64,000 bases of DNA from Pseudomonadota bacterium (lineage in GTDB: Bacteria > Pseudomonadota > Alphaproteobacteria > Acetobacterales > Acetobacteraceae), in assembly GCA_021816925.1 (NCBI GenBank), contig JAKAWQ010000012.1, forward strand, positions 1 through 64,000. Reading direction: 5' to 3'. Each line of letters starts with the position of its first letter. The stretch's first letter is position 1. The notes beneath the pieces were generated by a model. It was given only the letters and a program-made list of their open reading frames with translations. It searched no databases and was not told where the DNA came from. Below are positions 20,470 to 27,554 of this stretch, one piece after another. A program made the translations under genes and the position numbers.

Positions 20470-22035
20470 CTAACGGTTCGGGTCGCCCACGCGCGGCGGC
20501 ACGGCGATGAACGGCCGGTTGCTCGAGCCACCGAAATAGGCCGGATTCTCCACCGTGAAACGGCGGTGGATCACCCAGGCACTCGTCATCTGAACAACCG
20601 CCACGCCGCCGCGCAAGATCGAGAACCGCGGCCGCCCCGGTTCGGCAGGGATCGAGAACAGCGGCAGCCCGGGAGGCTCCTGGTGGCGGAATACGCGGCT
20701 CCCCACCGCGATCGCGAGCGTCGCGGGCGTGGTCAGGGAGGCCAGCATCTTAATTCGGTTTGCGACCGCCGTCCGCCTCATCGGCTGCATGACGGCATCC
20801 GTCGTCCGCCCGCTCGGAATGATCTCCGTCCGCTCCGAATAATAGAGCGCATCGTGCACGATCGGTGGCGGCGCTCCCGCCTTGAACCAGGCGTTGAAGT
20901 AGGCGGTGAGATCGTAGAACACGAACTGCGTACCCTCCGAAGGCGAGATGCCGGTTGTCTCGAAATAGTCATTCCAGGTGACGATGTTCACGAAACGAAC
21001 AGCCCGGCGGATTGCCGTGCCCTACAGCAGGCGGAAGGCGCTGGTGTTGCGCATCTCCCAGAAGCGCGACACCTTGGGCAGCACGTCCTGGGGTGCGAGC
21101 GGCATCGTCATGCGCAAGGTGTACGGGGTCATGGCCGCGAAGAAGCCCCGGAATCCGCCGCCTTCGATCGCATTCACGTCACGCTCGCCCCAGGCCGACA
21201 TCGCATAGCCGGGCGGGGCGAAAGAGCGCGCCTCGCGCCGCCAACCGAGCAGGACCGGGATGAAGGCAGTTTCTCTCCCGCGCCCCCGGAGATCAGCGAG
21301 CACGCTCAGCCGGTATGGCGCGCCCAGGTCACCCGGCGCAAACGGGGGCGACACCAGCCTTCCGTCCGCCAGCTGATCCGCCGAAGGATAGCGCGCGAGG
21401 GTCGCGATCGCGTCCGCCATGCGCATCCCGGGCACCGCGCGCAGCGCTGCCGAATCAGGCTGGATGACGATGCGGAACCCGGCCGCAACCTCCGATGCGG
21501 TCCGCATCAGCATGTTGATCCGATCCCAGGCGTTGAACGGCCTGCCCGGTGCGATGCGCAAGAGGTCGCACGCGAACGCGTCGAGGCCGCTCCGCTCGCA
21601 TGATTTCTAATGCGTAATTGATTTGCCGCCGGTCGGCGGAGGGCCGGGGACCCACCGGCAGCGGCCTGTCGCGCAGGTACCCGCCGATGCGGCGGAACTG
21701 ACCGTGCTCCCCTTCCCCGTTGAGCGGAACGCGATGGTATGCATCATTGCCGGCAGGCACGTTGCCGAGCGGGAGCGGATAGGGCGGGAAATAATGGGCG
21801 AACGTGGTGTGCGGCGCCGCCCTCGGCACCCGCGAGGCGGGTTCCGGAACAGCAGGATCCCGGGCGGGGACTCGGGGGGCTACAAACGCTGCGGCCGCGC
21901 TTCGGATGCGCGCCCATTCCGCCGGCGAGGGCGGGCTGGCTGCGCGCACGCCGCGCCCGGCGCCAGCAGGATCAGGCCAACAACGGCCGCCAAGAGGGCC
22001 TGCGGCCCATCCGCCACTCGTCGCATTCGGATCAT
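20470..22035 (-). pseudogene. Secreted GH71-type (endo-1,3-alpha-glucanase-like) glycoside hydrolase, disrupted
   Basis: The pieces in order on the minus strand are: a signal peptide from ATG 22035 (LLAAVVGLILLAPGAACAQ); a second frame with TTFAHYFPPYPLPLGN, YHRVPLNGEG and GGYLRDRPLP; a third frame with SGLDAFACDLLRIAPG, FRIVIQPD and FIPVLLGWRREARSF; then, after a TAG at 21022-21024, the same frame continues with FVNIVTWNDYFETTGISPSEG to a TAG at 20470-20472. Frameshifts fall near 21940 and 21590. HYFPPYPL, GGYLRDRPLP and VTWNDYFETTG are features I associate with GH71 glucanases. Two shifts and an internal stop make it a pseudogene unless the assembly is wrong. Confidence 0.68.
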
Positions 22036-22353: not shown

Positions 22354-22881
22354 ATGGGCGAGAGCATGAAACTGGACAGCATTCTTGTTCCACAACGAAA
22401 GAGCAAGGCGAAGGCGGAAATCAAGGACGCCAAGAGCACGATAACCCGCGATGACAAGTCATCTGCGCTTTCCTTTGCCGAGATGCTGTTCGAGAGCCAT
22501 CTTGCCGGTTCCGGGGATGCCCCCCGGTTCGAAATCTCGCGGCAGTTCCTGATCCGTCTCCTGCGTCCCATGTTTGACATGGTGCGCTTCGAACCGAAAT
22601 GGTACCAGTCTGCGTACCCCGACATCGCCGCCGCATGTCAGGCCGGCGCACTCACCGACCTCAAGGCACATTATTGCGAGTTCGGGTTTTTCGAGCATCG
22701 GCTTCCCTGCTTCGTGCGTGTCGACGACACGTTCTACCTTGGCGAGTACCCCGACATCGGCGTTGCCGTTTCGGAGGGCAGGGTTGCGTCGGCGCAGTGG
22801 CATTTCGAAACCTTCGGCTTCCGTGAGGGCCGCGTGCCATCGCGCGGCTGGCGCTTTTCCGATCTCTTGGTTGACGATTAG
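22354..22881 (+). CDS. Small protein with two YPD-type repeats, glycosyltransferase-associated
   Basis: A 175-residue (ATG 22354) or 171-residue (ATG 22366) protein without a signal peptide or membrane segment. The first 30 residues are Lys-rich. Two repeats of about 35 residues occur at 83-117 (WYQSAYPDIAAACQAG to HYCEFGFFEHRLP) and 128-161 (YLGEYPDIGVAVSEG to HFETFGFREGRVP). The same repeat opens the next gene, a glycosyltransferase. I know this unit only as a recurring element in alphaproteobacterial glycan proteins and know no assigned function. It could be a docking or carbohydrate-binding module. Position and shared repeat suggest it works with the two glycosyltransferases downstream. 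Confidence 0.7.
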   Translation: MGESMKLDSILVPQRKSKAKAEIKDAKSTITRDDKSSALSFAEMLFESHLAGSGDAPRFEISRQFLIRLLRPMFDMVRFEPKWYQSAYPDIAAACQAGALTDLKAHYCEFGFFEHRLPCFVRVDDTFYLGEYPDIGVAVSEGRVASAQWHFETFGFREGRVPSRGWRFSDLLVDD

Positions 22882-23058
22882 TCGCGGTCTCGTAGCGGCG
22901 GACGTGCGGCTCGGGCGGGCAGCCCGGTGCCGCCGCGTGCCCTCTCCGCAGCTACTCACGTTTCCCGCCCAACGCGATCTGCTTTATGCCTTGCGCCACG
23001 ACCCCCGAGAATCCGTGGCGGCTGCGTTCCCTCCCGCAGCCCACGCTGAGCGGAACCG

Positions 23059-24558
23059 GTGATGGACGCAGAGCTTGCCTACCTCAAGCGCTATCCCGAC
23101 GTGGCCGGAGCCATCAAGGCCGGAACCGTCACTTCTGCGCTTGAGCATTTCCTGAATTACGGACGCTTCGAGGGTCGGGTATGGCTCGGGCCGGAACGAA
23201 CCGCCGCCGGATCGGAGCCGGTTCCTGAGCCGCCCCCTCCCGAACCGGCCGCGGTGGCCCACAACTGCGACGCCATCCTGCTCACGCAGGGATTCCTCTT
23301 CGTCGATGGCTGGGTTGACGATCGCTTCGATGGGCTCGCGGCCATCGAGGTCGCAGTCGACGGCGCAGGCCCGGTACTCTCGCTTCCTTCCTGCCGCTAT
23401 CGCCGCCAGGACGTCGAGCAGCACCTCGGTCTCTCCTCCACCTTCGAAAGCGGCTTCTGGCAGTTGTTCCGGATTCCGGCCGATCTCGGACTCGGACCGA
23501 TCGGACTCCGGCTCCGGCTCGCCTCGGGACGGGCGGTTGCGCTCGGCGCCGGCAATGTCGTGCGGCTTTCGCTTCGAGAGCATTTCGAGGCGTTCCTCGG
23601 CTTCTACGGCCGACGCCAGCTCATCGGCAGCCTGGTTGCCCGCTCGTTCTCCGAGCTTGGCCTCGGCCTCGCCGGGACGATCGAGCACATGCACAACGCC
23701 ATCCGTACCACACGCGCGGCAACCAGCGAGGGCACTTACGGTCGCCGCCCATCGCGCCCGCTGCTTTCCTTCGTCTGCTGCATCTATGGCATCCCGGATT
23801 TCCTGTTCCTGCAGGTGGCACAGTTCGCGCGCTATGCGAACCTCGAGCGCTGCGAATTCATCTACGTCAACAACAGCCCCGAGCTCGAGGAAGTGCTGCA
23901 CCGTGATGCCGAGATAGCCGCGTTCCTCTTCCGCACCTCCGTAAGCGTAATCTCGCTCAACCAGAATACCGGCTTTTCGCACGCCAACAATGTCGGCATT
24001 GCCGAGGCCCGCAGCCAGACCATCGTCGTGATCAATCCCGACGTCTTCCCGTACAGCGCGGCCAGCTTTGGCACACTCTCGCGACTCGCGCAGAAGACGC
24101 GGCACGCGCTCATCGGCGGCAAGCTCTTTTATGCCGACGGCACGGTCATGCATGGAGGCATGATCTTCATCGCCGATCCTCGCCACTCCGCGCTCGCGCG
24201 CACGAAGGTCTGGACCGTCGAGCATCCGCGCAAGGGCTTCCCTGATCTCGGAGACAGCGACACCACTCCGGTCCCCGCGGTCAGCGGCGCGCTGATGGTG
24301 TTCGACCGGGCCGATTACGACAAGCTCGGCGGCTTCGACGAACGCTTCATCTATGGTCACTACGAGGATGCGGACCTCTGCCTCCGCTTCGCCGACAAGG
24401 GATGGAAGGTGCTCTACGACGCCTCCCTTACCTTCTGGCACTACGAGGGCAGGGGCTCGATCAAGCGGCCCGAGCACGCCGGTGCGGTGCATTACAACCG
24501 CTGGCTTTTCTCGCGCACCTGGTCGGCGTCGCTCTCGCGGCAGAATAGCGAGGCCTGA
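23059..24558 (+). CDS. Family 2 glycosyltransferase with N-terminal YPD repeat
   Basis: A 499-residue cytosolic transferase. It starts with one copy of the YPD repeat (YLKRYPDVAGAIKAG to HFLNYGRFEGRVW), then a beta-rich middle region of about 150 residues (FLFVDGWVDDRFDG). A GT-A fold catalytic domain follows from about residue 235: LSFVCCIYGIPDF, FIYVNNSPE, NQNTGFSHANNVGI, VVINPDVFPYS (the DxD-like NPD), then VSGALMVFDRADYDKLGGFDERF and YEDADLCLRFADKGW. The pattern is that of rhamnosyl/glycan GT2 enzymes. The start is GTG 23059 or the adjacent ATG 23062. The next gene begins at the base after its stop. Confidence 0.86.
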   Translation: MMDAELAYLKRYPDVAGAIKAGTVTSALEHFLNYGRFEGRVWLGPERTAAGSEPVPEPPPPEPAAVAHNCDAILLTQGFLFVDGWVDDRFDGLAAIEVAVDGAGPVLSLPSCRYRRQDVEQHLGLSSTFESGFWQLFRIPADLGLGPIGLRLRLASGRAVALGAGNVVRLSLREHFEAFLGFYGRRQLIGSLVARSFSELGLGLAGTIEHMHNAIRTTRAATSEGTYGRRPSRPLLSFVCCIYGIPDFLFLQVAQFARYANLERCEFIYVNNSPELEEVLHRDAEIAAFLFRTSVSVISLNQNTGFSHANNVGIAEARSQTIVVINPDVFPYSAASFGTLSRLAQKTRHALIGGKLFYADGTVMHGGMIFIADPRHSALARTKVWTVEHPRKGFPDLGDSDTTPVPAVSGALMVFDRADYDKLGGFDERFIYGHYEDADLCLRFADKGWKVLYDASLTFWHYEGRGSIKRPEHAGAVHYNRWLFSRTWSASLSRQNSEA

Positions 24559-25866
24559 ATGCGCATCCTCGAGATCAGCCTCTTTCATCCCGAGCTCATC
24601 CGAGGCGGCGCGCAGCAGGCCGCCTACGAGCTCTTCCTCGGCATGCGCAAGAGCGGCCTCGATGCGACCCTCCTCGCCTCGGCCGACCTCTCAGGCCCGA
24701 ATGCCCTCTTCAAGCCCGGCGCCATCATCACCGGCTTCGACGGCCGCGAGAACGAATTCCTGTTCCTCTCGGATGCCTTCGATCATGCGTGGCTGCGCAA
24801 TCTCAATGTCCGCGCCCTCAAATGGTTCGAGGAGTTCCTGCTCGACCGCAAGCCCGACGTCGTGCATTTCCATCACTTCCTCACCTTCGGACTCGAGCTC
24901 TTCCTGCTTGCCCGTCGCACACTGCCGAAGGCCAGGCTCTTCCTCACGTTGCACGAGTTCCTGGCAATCTGTCGCGCCGACGGGCATATGCTTCGCACCT
25001 TCGACAAGACCCTCTGTACATCTGCGTCGGCGGTGCGCTGCCACCAGTGCTTCCCCGATATCACCCCGGAGATGTTCCGACTGCGTGAGGATTGGATCAA
25101 GCAGGCTTTCGCCGTGTTCGACGGCTTCATCGCACCCACCGCGTTCGTGCGTGACCGCTATACGGCGTGGGGTCTGCCGCCACGCAAGATCCACGTCATT
25201 TCGAACGCGCAGACTGACTACGCCACACTCGAGTCCTGGCATCTTCGCCCGCCGTCGCCGGCCGGCCGCAGCCCCCGTCGCAACCGCTTCGCCTTCTTTG
25301 GCCAGCTCGTGGACGTCAAGGGCCTCGGTGTCGTGTTCGAGGCACTCGACATCTTCGCCAAACGCTACGACGAGGATCTCATCTTCGAGATCAACGGCTC
25401 CAACCTGAAGTTCGCCTCGGAAAAATTCCGCATCCGGTTTGACGAATTCATCTCCGGCAAACATCAGTTGCCGGAGCGCATCAAGGTGAGCTGGAACGGC
25501 AGCTATGCGATGACAGACCTCCCTTCACGCATGGGGCGGATCGACTGGGTGCTGGTGCCCTCGATCTGGTGGGAGATTTTCGGCCTCGTGCTTTCCGAGG
25601 CCTTCATGTTCCGCCGCCCGCCGATCGCAAGCCGCATCGGCGGCCTTGCCGAGCGCGTGCGCGGCGAGAAAGACGGCCTCCTGTTCGACGCCGGGGACGC
25701 CAGCGAGCTCGCGGACATCTTCTACCGCGCCATCACCGAGGAGGGCCTCTGGGAACGCCTCAGCGCCGCGAGTCCCGGGGTGCCCTCGGTTGAGAGCATC
25801 GTGGAATCGCACCTCAGGGTCTTCAGCGGTCGCGCCGGCGCCGTCCGTCGCGCCCGGGCCGCCTGA
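24559..25866 (+). CDS. Family 4 glycosyltransferase
   Basis: A 435-residue GT-B fold enzyme. The N-terminal half starts MRILEISLFHPELIRGGAQQ (shortened in the family as the glycine-rich donor/acceptor loop) and has DVVHFHHFLTFG and LHEFLAICRADGH. Cysteines cluster in LCTSASAVRCHQC, a feature of some GT4 enzymes with a metal-binding insertion. The C-terminal half has FFGQLVDVKG and the nucleotide-sugar EX7E motif EIFGLVLSE. Its ATG directly follows the stop of the GT2 gene, so the pair is co-transcribed and presumably builds the same glycan. Sugar donors cannot be read. Confidence 0.86.
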   Translation: MRILEISLFHPELIRGGAQQAAYELFLGMRKSGLDATLLASADLSGPNALFKPGAIITGFDGRENEFLFLSDAFDHAWLRNLNVRALKWFEEFLLDRKPDVVHFHHFLTFGLELFLLARRTLPKARLFLTLHEFLAICRADGHMLRTFDKTLCTSASAVRCHQCFPDITPEMFRLREDWIKQAFAVFDGFIAPTAFVRDRYTAWGLPPRKIHVISNAQTDYATLESWHLRPPSPAGRSPRRNRFAFFGQLVDVKGLGVVFEALDIFAKRYDEDLIFEINGSNLKFASEKFRIRFDEFISGKHQLPERIKVSWNGSYAMTDLPSRMGRIDWVLVPSIWWEIFGLVLSEAFMFRRPPIASRIGGLAERVRGEKDGLLFDAGDASELADIFYRAITEEGLWERLSAASPGVPSVESIVESHLRVFSGRAGAVRRARAA

Positions 25867-26279
25867 CCGGCGCCACCGAGGCTTTGCCGCCGCGCGCCTG
25901 TGTCGGCCGCCTGGCCCGCTCCTGCGGCCTTCCGGTCGGCCCTGGCGAGGCACCGTGGGGCATTCCGTGCCGTCCGGCTCCCCGTTCGCTTGCCCCTCGA
26001 TCGCCCGCGCTCCGATGAACGAGTGCCCGGTGCGGCGGCGGTCGGACGTGATGCAGTCTGATCGCTGCCGGGCCCGAGGCAAGATGTCCGCCCTGCCGGA
26101 TCTGCGGATCTCACATGAACTTGAAGCACCTGCACGAATCGGGCCACCTGCCCTAGTTTCGCCATGGCAGGGGCCGATCGTGGGTCCTGGGCGATCGAGC
26201 AGCAAGTGCCCGCTGAAGGGGTGCTTGCCACTTTTTGTGTGGCCCGCGCCGGCAAAGAGGCGGGAAAGACGGGGCTGCG
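25867..26279. other. Intergenic region before the TSUP permease
   Basis: About 410 bp with no recognisable gene. The only clear structure is the hairpin with T-run at 26202-26235. Confidence 0.5.
26202..26235 (+). terminator. Rho-independent terminator or attenuator hairpin
   Basis: GCAAGTGCCC (26202-26211) pairs with GGGTGCTTGC (26219-26228) over ten base pairs including two G-T pairs, with a 7-nt loop, followed by CAC and TTTTT. It lies about 335 bases after the glycosyltransferases and only 45 bases before the permease ATG. It could end the upstream transcript or act as an attenuator for the permease. Confidence 0.5.
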
Positions 26280-27554
26280 ATGACCACGGAAACATACAAT
26301 AACAAGGTCACCCTCCTCCCGTCCGATGATTCGCTGATCCGCAAGACCGAGCTGATCATCAGCGGCGTGCTGCGCGGCGGTGTCCTCCTCAGCGTCGCCG
26401 TTATCCTCGGCGGCGTCATCTACCTCTATGTGCTGAAGCTCGTCGGTGGGCTGCACCATGCAACCTACCCCGACTCGCTGGGCGCGCTCTTCGCCGGGCT
26501 GATCCGGCTTGATCCACTGGCAATCATTGTTCTCGGCCTCATGATCCTCCTGGCAACGCCGGTCATCCGCGTCGCCGTCTCGATCGTCGCCTTCGCCATC
26601 GAGGAAGACCGGACCTACGTCATTATCACCACTTTGGTCCTCGTGATCCTGCTCTTCAGCATCTTCGGGGTTGGTGGTTGGCTCGGCCGGTCGGGCAGCG
26701 ACATCGTTCAGGACGATACGCCAACCTTCTTCGTTTTGGTGCTTCTGAGTTCGTTTTTTGCAGGAGTGGTCGGTGCACTCGTCGGCCTTGGCGGCGGCGT
26801 GTTCATCGTCCCGATCCTGACACTCGTCTTTCATGTCCCGTTCACGCAGGCAATCGGCGCCTCTATCGTCTCGGTGATCGCCACCTCGAGCGGAGCGGCG
26901 GCGGCCTACGTCCGGGATCGGATGACGAACCTCCGGGTGGGCATGTTCCTCGAGATCGCAACCACGCTCGGCGCGATCTGCGGCGCCCTCCTCAGCACAT
27001 TTCTCAATGCCCAGGTCCTTTTCATCGTTTTCGGGCTGGTCCTGCTGATCTCGGCCTTGCCGCTGATCATGCGCCTTGGCGAGGAGCTGCCGGAGGGGGT
27101 GAAGAACCACAAATGGGCGGAGAAGCTGCGCCTCCCCTCAACTTACCCGGACCGCCGCACCCAAGCGGACGTCCCGTACCATGTCGCCCACATCAAATCG
27201 GGCTTCAGCATGATGTATGTGGCCGGATTGATGTCCGGCTTGCTCGGCATCGGCAGCGGCACATTCAAGGTCTTGGCGATGGATACCGCCATGCGTCTGC
27301 CCATGAAGGTTTCCACCACCACCAGCAATTTCATGATCGGCGTCACTGCCGCCGCTTCGGCAGGCATCTTCTTCCAGCGCGGTGACATCGACCCGGTGAT
27401 CGCGGCTCCGGTCGCGCTTGGCGTCCTGCTCGGTGCAACGCTCGGCGCCAAGCTCATCACGCGCTTGTCGAACGTGCGGATCCGCAAGATCTTCGTCCCG
27501 GTCATCGGCTTGGTGGCGCTCAACATGCTGGCGCGCGGGTTCGGCTGGCTGTGA
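26280..27554 (+). CDS. DUF1634-TSUP (TauE/SafE) membrane permease fusion
   Basis: A 424-residue polytopic inner-membrane protein. Residues about 15-135 form a DUF1634 domain with three hydrophobic helices (LIISGVLRGGVLLSVAVIL, DPLAIIVLGLMILLATPVIR, TLVLVILLFSIFGVGG). From about residue 150 comes a TSUP/TauE anion-permease domain with GALVGLGGGVFIVPILTL, QAIGASIVSVIATSSGA and the second glycine motif GLLGIGSGTFKVLAMD. TSUP proteins export or import sulfite-type or organosulfur anions. The two domains are commonly separate neighbouring genes; here they are one chain with DUF1634 first. Start ATG 26280 follows a GGGAAAGACGGGG stretch. Confidence 0.85.
   Translation: MTTETYNNKVTLLPSDDSLIRKTELIISGVLRGGVLLSVAVILGGVIYLYVLKLVGGLHHATYPDSLGALFAGLIRLDPLAIIVLGLMILLATPVIRVAVSIVAFAIEEDRTYVIITTLVLVILLFSIFGVGGWLGRSGSDIVQDDTPTFFVLVLLSSFFAGVVGALVGLGGGVFIVPILTLVFHVPFTQAIGASIVSVIATSSGAAAAYVRDRMTNLRVGMFLEIATTLGAICGALLSTFLNAQVLFIVFGLVLLISALPLIMRLGEELPEGVKNHKWAEKLRLPSTYPDRRTQADVPYHVAHIKSGFSMMYVAGLMSGLLGIGSGTFKVLAMDTAMRLPMKVSTTTSNFMIGVTAAASAGIFFQRGDIDPVIAAPVALGVLLGATLGAKLITRLSNVRIRKIFVPVIGLVALNMLARGFGWL

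Follow-up and report, generated by a model that had tools for sequence, protein, structure and literature searches.

The window, that is, the whole stretch of 64,000 nucleotides of an Acetobacteraceae genome that was analysed, encodes a small protein of 175 aa and a glycosyltransferase of 499 aa, and this gene pair is part of one operon-like array (Table 1). The open reading frame of the small protein covers positions 22354-22881 on the plus strand; its upstream start at 22354 adds four residues, and the alignment with two further loci (L032 and L033) suggests that translation begins at the second methionine, at 22366. A gap of 177 bases separates this frame from that of the enzyme, which has a GTG at 23059 and an ATG at 23062 as possible start codons. 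The enzyme gene is directly followed by a GT4-type gene; a GT4-type gene occupies the same position in L032, while open reading frames of similar size lie there in L033 and L034, and this third gene is apparently kept in the genus of the window.

Table 1 Features of the small-protein and glycosyltransferase locus (positions of the window).
Feature	Position	Strand	Basis
Small two-unit protein	22366..22881	+	Open reading frame; start from alignment with L032/L033
Helix 63-76 ahead of unit 1	22540..22581	+	AlphaFold2 model, alignment A1
YPD unit 1, small protein	22588..22707	+	Profile; short helices, mean pLDDT >90
YPD unit 2, small protein	22720..22839	+	Profile; AlphaFold2 model
GT2 glycosyltransferase, 499 aa	23059..24558	+	Pfam PF13641, PF00535
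YPD unit 3, enzyme N-terminus	23071..23184	+	Profile; helices within residues 2-35 of model
Pro/Glu-rich linker between unit 3 and enzyme remainder, predicted disordered	23191..23256	+	pLDDT
Beta domain of enzyme	23257..23568	+	Model; profile comparison 80%, P 1.4e-5
GT-A catalytic core, NPDV (D328) and ED (E436, D437)	23719..24441	+	Invariant columns of alignment A5; PDB matches
GT4-type glycosyltransferase, 435 aa, third gene	24559..25866	+	Pfam

Elsewhere in the window, an open reading frame on the minus strand (20470-21561) matches the C-terminal part of GH71 alone (E 2.1e-13, positions 225-374 of the 375 of the profile) and adjoins a second frame that has no Pfam match, so that this region is possibly a split or decayed GH71 gene. 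Positions 26235-27554 encode a TauE/SafE-type transporter that carries a DUF1634 domain as well.

The YPD unit in the small protein and the enzyme

An earlier note on this DNA had described three copies of a YPD repeat, two in the 175-aa protein and one at the start of the GT2 enzyme, and these copies proved real: a unit profile run against the six-frame translation of the window matched these three places (E 4e-14, 2e-13 and 1e-13; 46-48 bits), the next-best match had an E-value of 4.3, and 20 shuffles reached at most 9.7 bits. The motif drawn there agrees with the family profile (FDxxxYxxxYPDVxxA...HFxxxGxxEGRxP), and the repeat stands as described except for its length, given as about 35 and measured here as 40 residues. 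The profile was built from 67 of 79 family rows with those of the window's own genus excluded; since the rows had been gathered by a search that started from the units of the window, a mild circularity remains. A direct search with the small protein, in which no profile was used, recovers the enzyme's copy of the unit in the same genome (E 0.0023). The three units of the window share 14-17 of 40 residues pairwise, and the period in the small protein is 44 residues. Conservation among the 79 units collected is highest for Tyr, Gly and Arg (100% of the filled rows each), followed by His (97%), the final Pro (92%) and the Asp of YPD (86%).

The small protein matched no family in Pfam, NCBIfam or PHROGs, and a phmmer search against PDB sequences returned one match at chance level (E 0.95). 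The profile search of the repeat proposed in the earlier note brought up no named family above the cut-off, the unit consensus giving only sub-threshold matches in Pfam and NCBIfam, and a known helical repeat family was rejected for lack of any match above the cut-off in Pfam, NCBIfam and PHROGs. As in TPR, Sel1 and other helical repeats of Pfam, short helical repeats serve here as modules; the unit differs from these in its consensus staying below the cut-off, in the missing Pfam match of the small protein and in the missing fold match in the PDB. A well-described domain with an unrelated role, which the note had named as evidence against its proposal, appeared in none of Pfam, NCBIfam, PHROGs and PDB.

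An AlphaFold2 model of the small protein, based on alignment A1 (19 sequences), has a mean pLDDT of 82.5, with block means of 93-98 over residues 71-170 and low confidence over residues 1-40. Each unit is modelled as three or four short helices with helix 63-76 in front, and this helix sits in a region whose sequence varies by partner class. The sequence shows no signal peptide or membrane helix to the eye, and the small protein is probably cytosolic. With this model, Foldseek found no PDB structure at E ≤0.001 (best E 5.0) and VIA-align placed 0 of 28 chains at Z ≥2, so that neither program offers a solved fold from the PDB, a missing match being no proof of a new fold. The best structure-level matches to viral models ranged from E 0.01 to 0.05, led by a Hyperionvirus GT2 (E 0.01) and including a FkbM methyltransferase, a glycosyltransferase and a dTDP-sugar reductase of Hyperionvirus; these are no more than suggestive, since none reaches E 0.001. 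Among the papers listed by our literature searches, in a library without most subscription journals, none concerns the YPD unit.

Domain order of the glycosyltransferase

By Pfam, the 499-aa protein is a GT2 glycosyltransferase, matching PF13641 with 40.1 bits (cut-off 27; E 5e-10) and PF00535 with 27.0 bits (cut-off 23.3; E 5e-6). Its NPDV and ED motifs, which we take to be the catalytic motifs (DxD-like and ED) of a GT-A enzyme, are invariant over eight homologues (alignment A5), and membership of the GT-A fold is borne out by a VIA-align Z of 19.5 to 6yv7 over 193 residues (rmsd 2.7). The enzyme model, computed from eight sequences, reached a mean pLDDT of 74.7 (four other models, 53-69). 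It runs from the unit helices (residues 2-35) through the low-confidence Pro/Glu-rich linker (mean pLDDT 48 over residues 41-50, 40 over 51-60 and 71 over 61-70) and the beta domain (67-170) to a helical stretch and the GT-A core at about 221-461. Hence the enzyme shares with the GT2 family its Pfam matches and core and differs from it by the N-terminal YPD unit, the flexible linker and the beta domain. Among the PDB matches listed, all lie within residues 227-499 (Z up to 19.5), and residues 232-498 alone are spanned by at least a fifth of them; because the matches cover this part, the beta domain and the unit are barely tested against the PDB.

The GT2-GT9 enzymes (L086, L039 and others) carry four N-terminal copies of a beta domain of about 84 residues with a conserved Gly-Trp, and a profile comparison linked this domain to that of the window's enzyme (probability 80%, P 1.4e-5). 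A beta-domain profile drawn from a single protein (three copies) missed the enzyme of the window, and one made of 40 copies matched no enzyme of up to 660 aa at E-values up to 10. The two kinds of beta domain are probably related, a relation of moderate strength because only the profile-profile comparison, made on rows gathered with a joint profile, connected them.

Small genes and their partner enzymes in Acetobacteraceae

Searched with the small protein (P0001), 29 of 60 genomes including its own gave a match at E ≤0.01, distributed as 29 of the 36 same-family genomes and 0 of the 24 others, with large multi-unit proteins among the matches. The A1 search matched 146 of 249 family genomes at E 1e-15 and 67 of 102 genera, both numbers including large multi-unit proteins. 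The small proteins themselves can be aligned as a single family, in which a helix precedes the two units. This bears on the idea that the small protein arose by gene fission and merely hitch-hikes as the functionless leftover of an enzyme's repeat region: enzymes that carry several units at the N-terminus are indeed common and the pair lies in one operon-like array, but debris would decay, whereas this family is kept across many genera and its members also stand beside enzymes that have no unit, which makes such an origin very improbable.

Genomic stretches of up to 20 kb around the matches were read in sets of 20, 60 and 20. The set of 60 was chosen manually among listed matches that had a short open frame, mostly by score and with the neighbours unseen (rows listed outside it include G067, G131, G137, G203 and G223), and the last set of 20 was chosen because its frames were long, contained in-frame stops or might be fused. 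The counts leave out a duplicate (L172), a second partial hit in one frame (L179_1), two loci from outside the family (L214, L215) and two stretches of the first set that were not used as small genes (L050, L051). Among the resulting 100 small-module genes, 75 have a partner-class gene on the same strand within 500 bp (68 downstream, 7 upstream), namely 73 glycosyltransferase genes and two FkbH-like ones, the latter not glycosyltransferases by Pfam (L043 matches FkbH_N only). A further five are fused to a GT61-type enzyme and 20 have no such neighbour. By partner class, as defined by ourselves from clustering and profiles with Pfam run on representatives, the neighbours comprise WbsX (35), GT2-GT9 (19), the window's class (16), GT2-GT1 (3) and FkbH (2). 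Rows not picked for fusion stand beside a partner-class gene in 66 of 79 cases; the 21 rows of the fusion-picked set divide into nine beside, five fused and seven with none.

Three genomes from two genera account for the five fused rows (two each in L169 and L170; that in L181 has one unit). The one fusion that was scanned, L169:5223-6914, is GT61 by Pfam (E 2.1e-9), and the other four GT61-type fusions are its homologues. The single-unit partners L035, L036 and L040 gave no Pfam match at E 0.01; they share 33-35% identity with the window's enzyme and keep its motifs. Some of the unpaired small genes stand near sugar genes of other kinds; for example, that of L131 lies between an epimerase gene and a PfkB-plus-cytidylyltransferase gene, an arrangement that we take to resemble ADP-heptose synthesis genes, and that of L048 has a GT61 gene on the other strand. 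Three genomes (G061, G197 and G094) hold an orphan copy (L129, L132 and L100, respectively) in addition to a WbsX-class paired one (L102, L092 and L085), with the orphans L132 and L100 lying no more than 1 kb from where the sequence read ends. A non-enzymatic small protein beside a glycosyltransferase in most loci, with an invariant Tyr in each unit, could also be the acceptor, i.e., a priming protein that the enzyme glycosylates. However, the same module is fused to GT61-type enzymes, and the invariants look structural because enzyme-borne units have them as well, so that we regard this role as very improbable.

The earlier note had linked the two proteins through their shared modules and had suggested docking between them or on a common glycan. 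The link between them holds up, in adjacency, co-inheritance and fusions; docking through the shared unit fails as a general rule. If the units of the small protein packed against that of the enzyme, both partners should carry units, which is the case for the window's and the WbsX class, but in the GT2-GT9, FkbH and GT2-GT1 classes, where 13 of the 24 neighbours were tested, all 13 showed no unit even with filters off (best stretch 15 residues, E 0.077). Window-type enzymes were found at 33 places in 32 of 249 family genomes at E 1e-60, of which 30 were read and, with one starting at a contig edge, 29 counted: 20 have a small gene upstream and nine do not. All nine keep the unit nevertheless; for L268 the stretch shows 376 bases upstream, and L282 has units nearby on the opposite strand. 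Among the 20, L283, with a stop inside the gene, has no unit in the frame read. Mapped on the enzyme tree, the small gene switches between present and absent three times. Unit and small gene therefore come and go separately, given class partners without a unit and enzymes without a small gene, and on these two grounds unit-to-unit docking was rejected as the general link and is unlikely overall. Two of the nine enzymes without a small gene belong to genomes (G095 and G248) that the family-wide search left without a match at E 1e-15, indicating that a window-type enzyme can probably work without the small protein.

In a quick tree built from the 100 small modules, five changes suffice for the six partner classes, the minimum possible, and 13 with 'none' as a seventh label, compared with a shuffled mean of 56.7 and none of 200 shuffles as low, on a tree in which 38 of 97 inner branches are weak and the GT2-GT1 rows fall in two places. 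By eye in alignment A1, the region ahead of the units is class-specific. A functional link between small protein and enzyme is well supported by adjacency, by co-inheritance by class and by the natural fusions. Glycosyltransferases with a small partner protein are already known, as in the two-component systems Alg13/Alg14, PssD/PssE and DesVII/DesVIII. Like the small partners of these systems, the YPD protein adjoins and is co-inherited with a glycosyltransferase, a conserved gene pair being seen in the 73 glycosyltransferase neighbours and five fusions; it differs by having no match in Pfam, NCBIfam or PHROGs and by going with several enzyme classes. Neither the module nor its combination with several enzyme classes carries a name in the libraries that we searched.

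With a probability of roughly 0.5, we read the small protein as a non-catalytic accessory subunit of the adjoining enzyme. What the computation shows is the unit and its family, the gene pairs and fusions, the match between small protein and enzyme class, and predicted folds; physical contact, acceptor binding and any effect on activity are inferred. Against an accessory subunit stand the 20 small genes without a neighbour and the nine window-type enzymes without an adjoining small gene, and the agreement between small protein and enzyme class could also arise by linkage alone.

Units outside the family and a possible role in glycan synthesis

With the unit alone as query, 36 of 299 genomes in a phylum sample gave a match at E 1e-4, three of them in the window's own family. 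Forty outside-family stretches were read and yielded 47 unit-bearing frames, 46 of which were scanned by Pfam: Glycos_transf_2 (13) and Glyco_trans_1_4 (12) were commonest, and RTX repeats (4), WsaF (3) and RgpF, sulfotransferase and Ig-like domains (2 each) followed among the 25 of 57 families listed. Of the plasmid records 95 match, the 40 rows listed being mostly annotated as glycosyltransferases, methyltransferases, calcium-binding proteins or hypotheticals; phage records gave one match at E 0.01. A survey of 385 genomes, with at most 10 candidates scored per genome, had suggested a small protein confined to Acetobacteraceae, as outside-family matches at E 1e-12 begin at model position 41 or later.

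The standalone small protein also occurs outside Acetobacteraceae, and its restriction to this family is rejected by L214 (genome G791), L215 (genome G772), Bradyrhizobium and Gemmobacter. L214 and L215 each encode a standalone two-unit protein, in L214 among closely packed genes in which a four-unit GT2-plus-GT4 enzyme of 992 aa overlaps the small gene if its first possible start is used. On Bradyrhizobium plasmids, standalone two-unit proteins were found in 14 records, the small protein following a WbsX enzyme in the one record checked by Pfam and a protein annotated as GH99-like in another; polysaccharide gene clusters of both Bradyrhizobium and Gemmobacter hold such standalone relatives. 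Gemmobacter fulvus has a small two-unit protein among rfbCBDA (dTDP-rhamnose) and heptose genes; the gene before it (L287 3223-4680) joins the N-terminal module of the small protein, with one unit, to a longer protein without a Pfam match, whose P-loop looks sulfotransferase-like. The Bradyrhizobium protein also matches, with 38.6% identity over residues 46-146, a 134-aa protein of Komagataeibacter saccharivorans that is encoded between a GT61 gene and a glycosyltransferase gene.

A further explanation, in line with the docking on a common glycan suggested in the earlier note, is that the YPD units bind glycan directly: the small protein and the unit of the enzyme would then hold the same acceptor with no need for contact between the two, and secreted YPD proteins would adhere to the cell's surface polysaccharide. 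The range of carriers (GT2, GT4, GT61, WbsX, RgpF, sulfotransferase, methyltransferase, RTX and Ig-domain proteins) favours direct binding, as do the weak structure matches to giant-virus sugar enzymes and the units kept in enzymes that have no small gene nearby; moreover, units joined to RTX repeats in likely secreted proteins count against an accessory subunit, because docking to an enzyme makes little sense there. Yet the conserved Tyr, Asp, His, Gly and Arg may be structural alone, and the agreement between small proteins and enzyme classes argues for a more specific link, which leaves direct glycan binding possible but well short of likely.

Returning to the accessory subunit as the preferred reading, the 175-aa protein, probably in the cytosol, would work with the glycosyltransferase encoded right after it. 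Both carry members of the YPD module, a previously undescribed set of predicted short helices that many bacteria add to enzymes for making or decorating surface polysaccharides. In the enzyme the unit is predicted to hang on a flexible linker ahead of the beta domain and the GT-A core, where it most likely brings the enzyme to its acceptor, which would be a growing glycan of the lipid-linked or LPS type, or to the complex holding this acceptor, and the region of the small protein ahead of its units would set which enzyme is served. The unit, which belongs mainly to glycan-building enzymes, would thus serve these enzymes for targeting or for binding the acceptor; acceptor binding or recruitment accounts most simply for the enzymes, for the RTX-type proteins and for unit and small gene being gained and lost independently. 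More tentatively, and with doubt prevailing, the YPD unit might represent a new fold and a general module for acceptor recognition or assembly in surface-glycan synthesis that extends to secreted proteins and giant-virus sugar enzymes, with the standalone proteins as exchangeable, class-matched subunits that bring GT2, GT9, GT61, WbsX and FkbH-like enzymes to one glycan.

Bacterial encounters with hosts, phages and surfaces are governed by surface glycans, and glycosyltransferases such as those read here carry long unannotated N-termini. A recurrent module without a name in the libraries searched, found on enzymes and as their standalone partner, offers a testable handle on how acceptors are found, and the YPD module would let annotators name proteins that are now called hypothetical.

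The outside-family material also holds frames of unusual size or layout. L245, L250 and L251 are very large open frames in which several YPD units lie towards the C-terminal end of the sequence that was read, and 18 units lie along another very large frame in L247. On an E. coli plasmid (L284 4505-7243), two YPD units stand at the C-terminus of a methyltransferase, in what looks like a capsule-type export locus.
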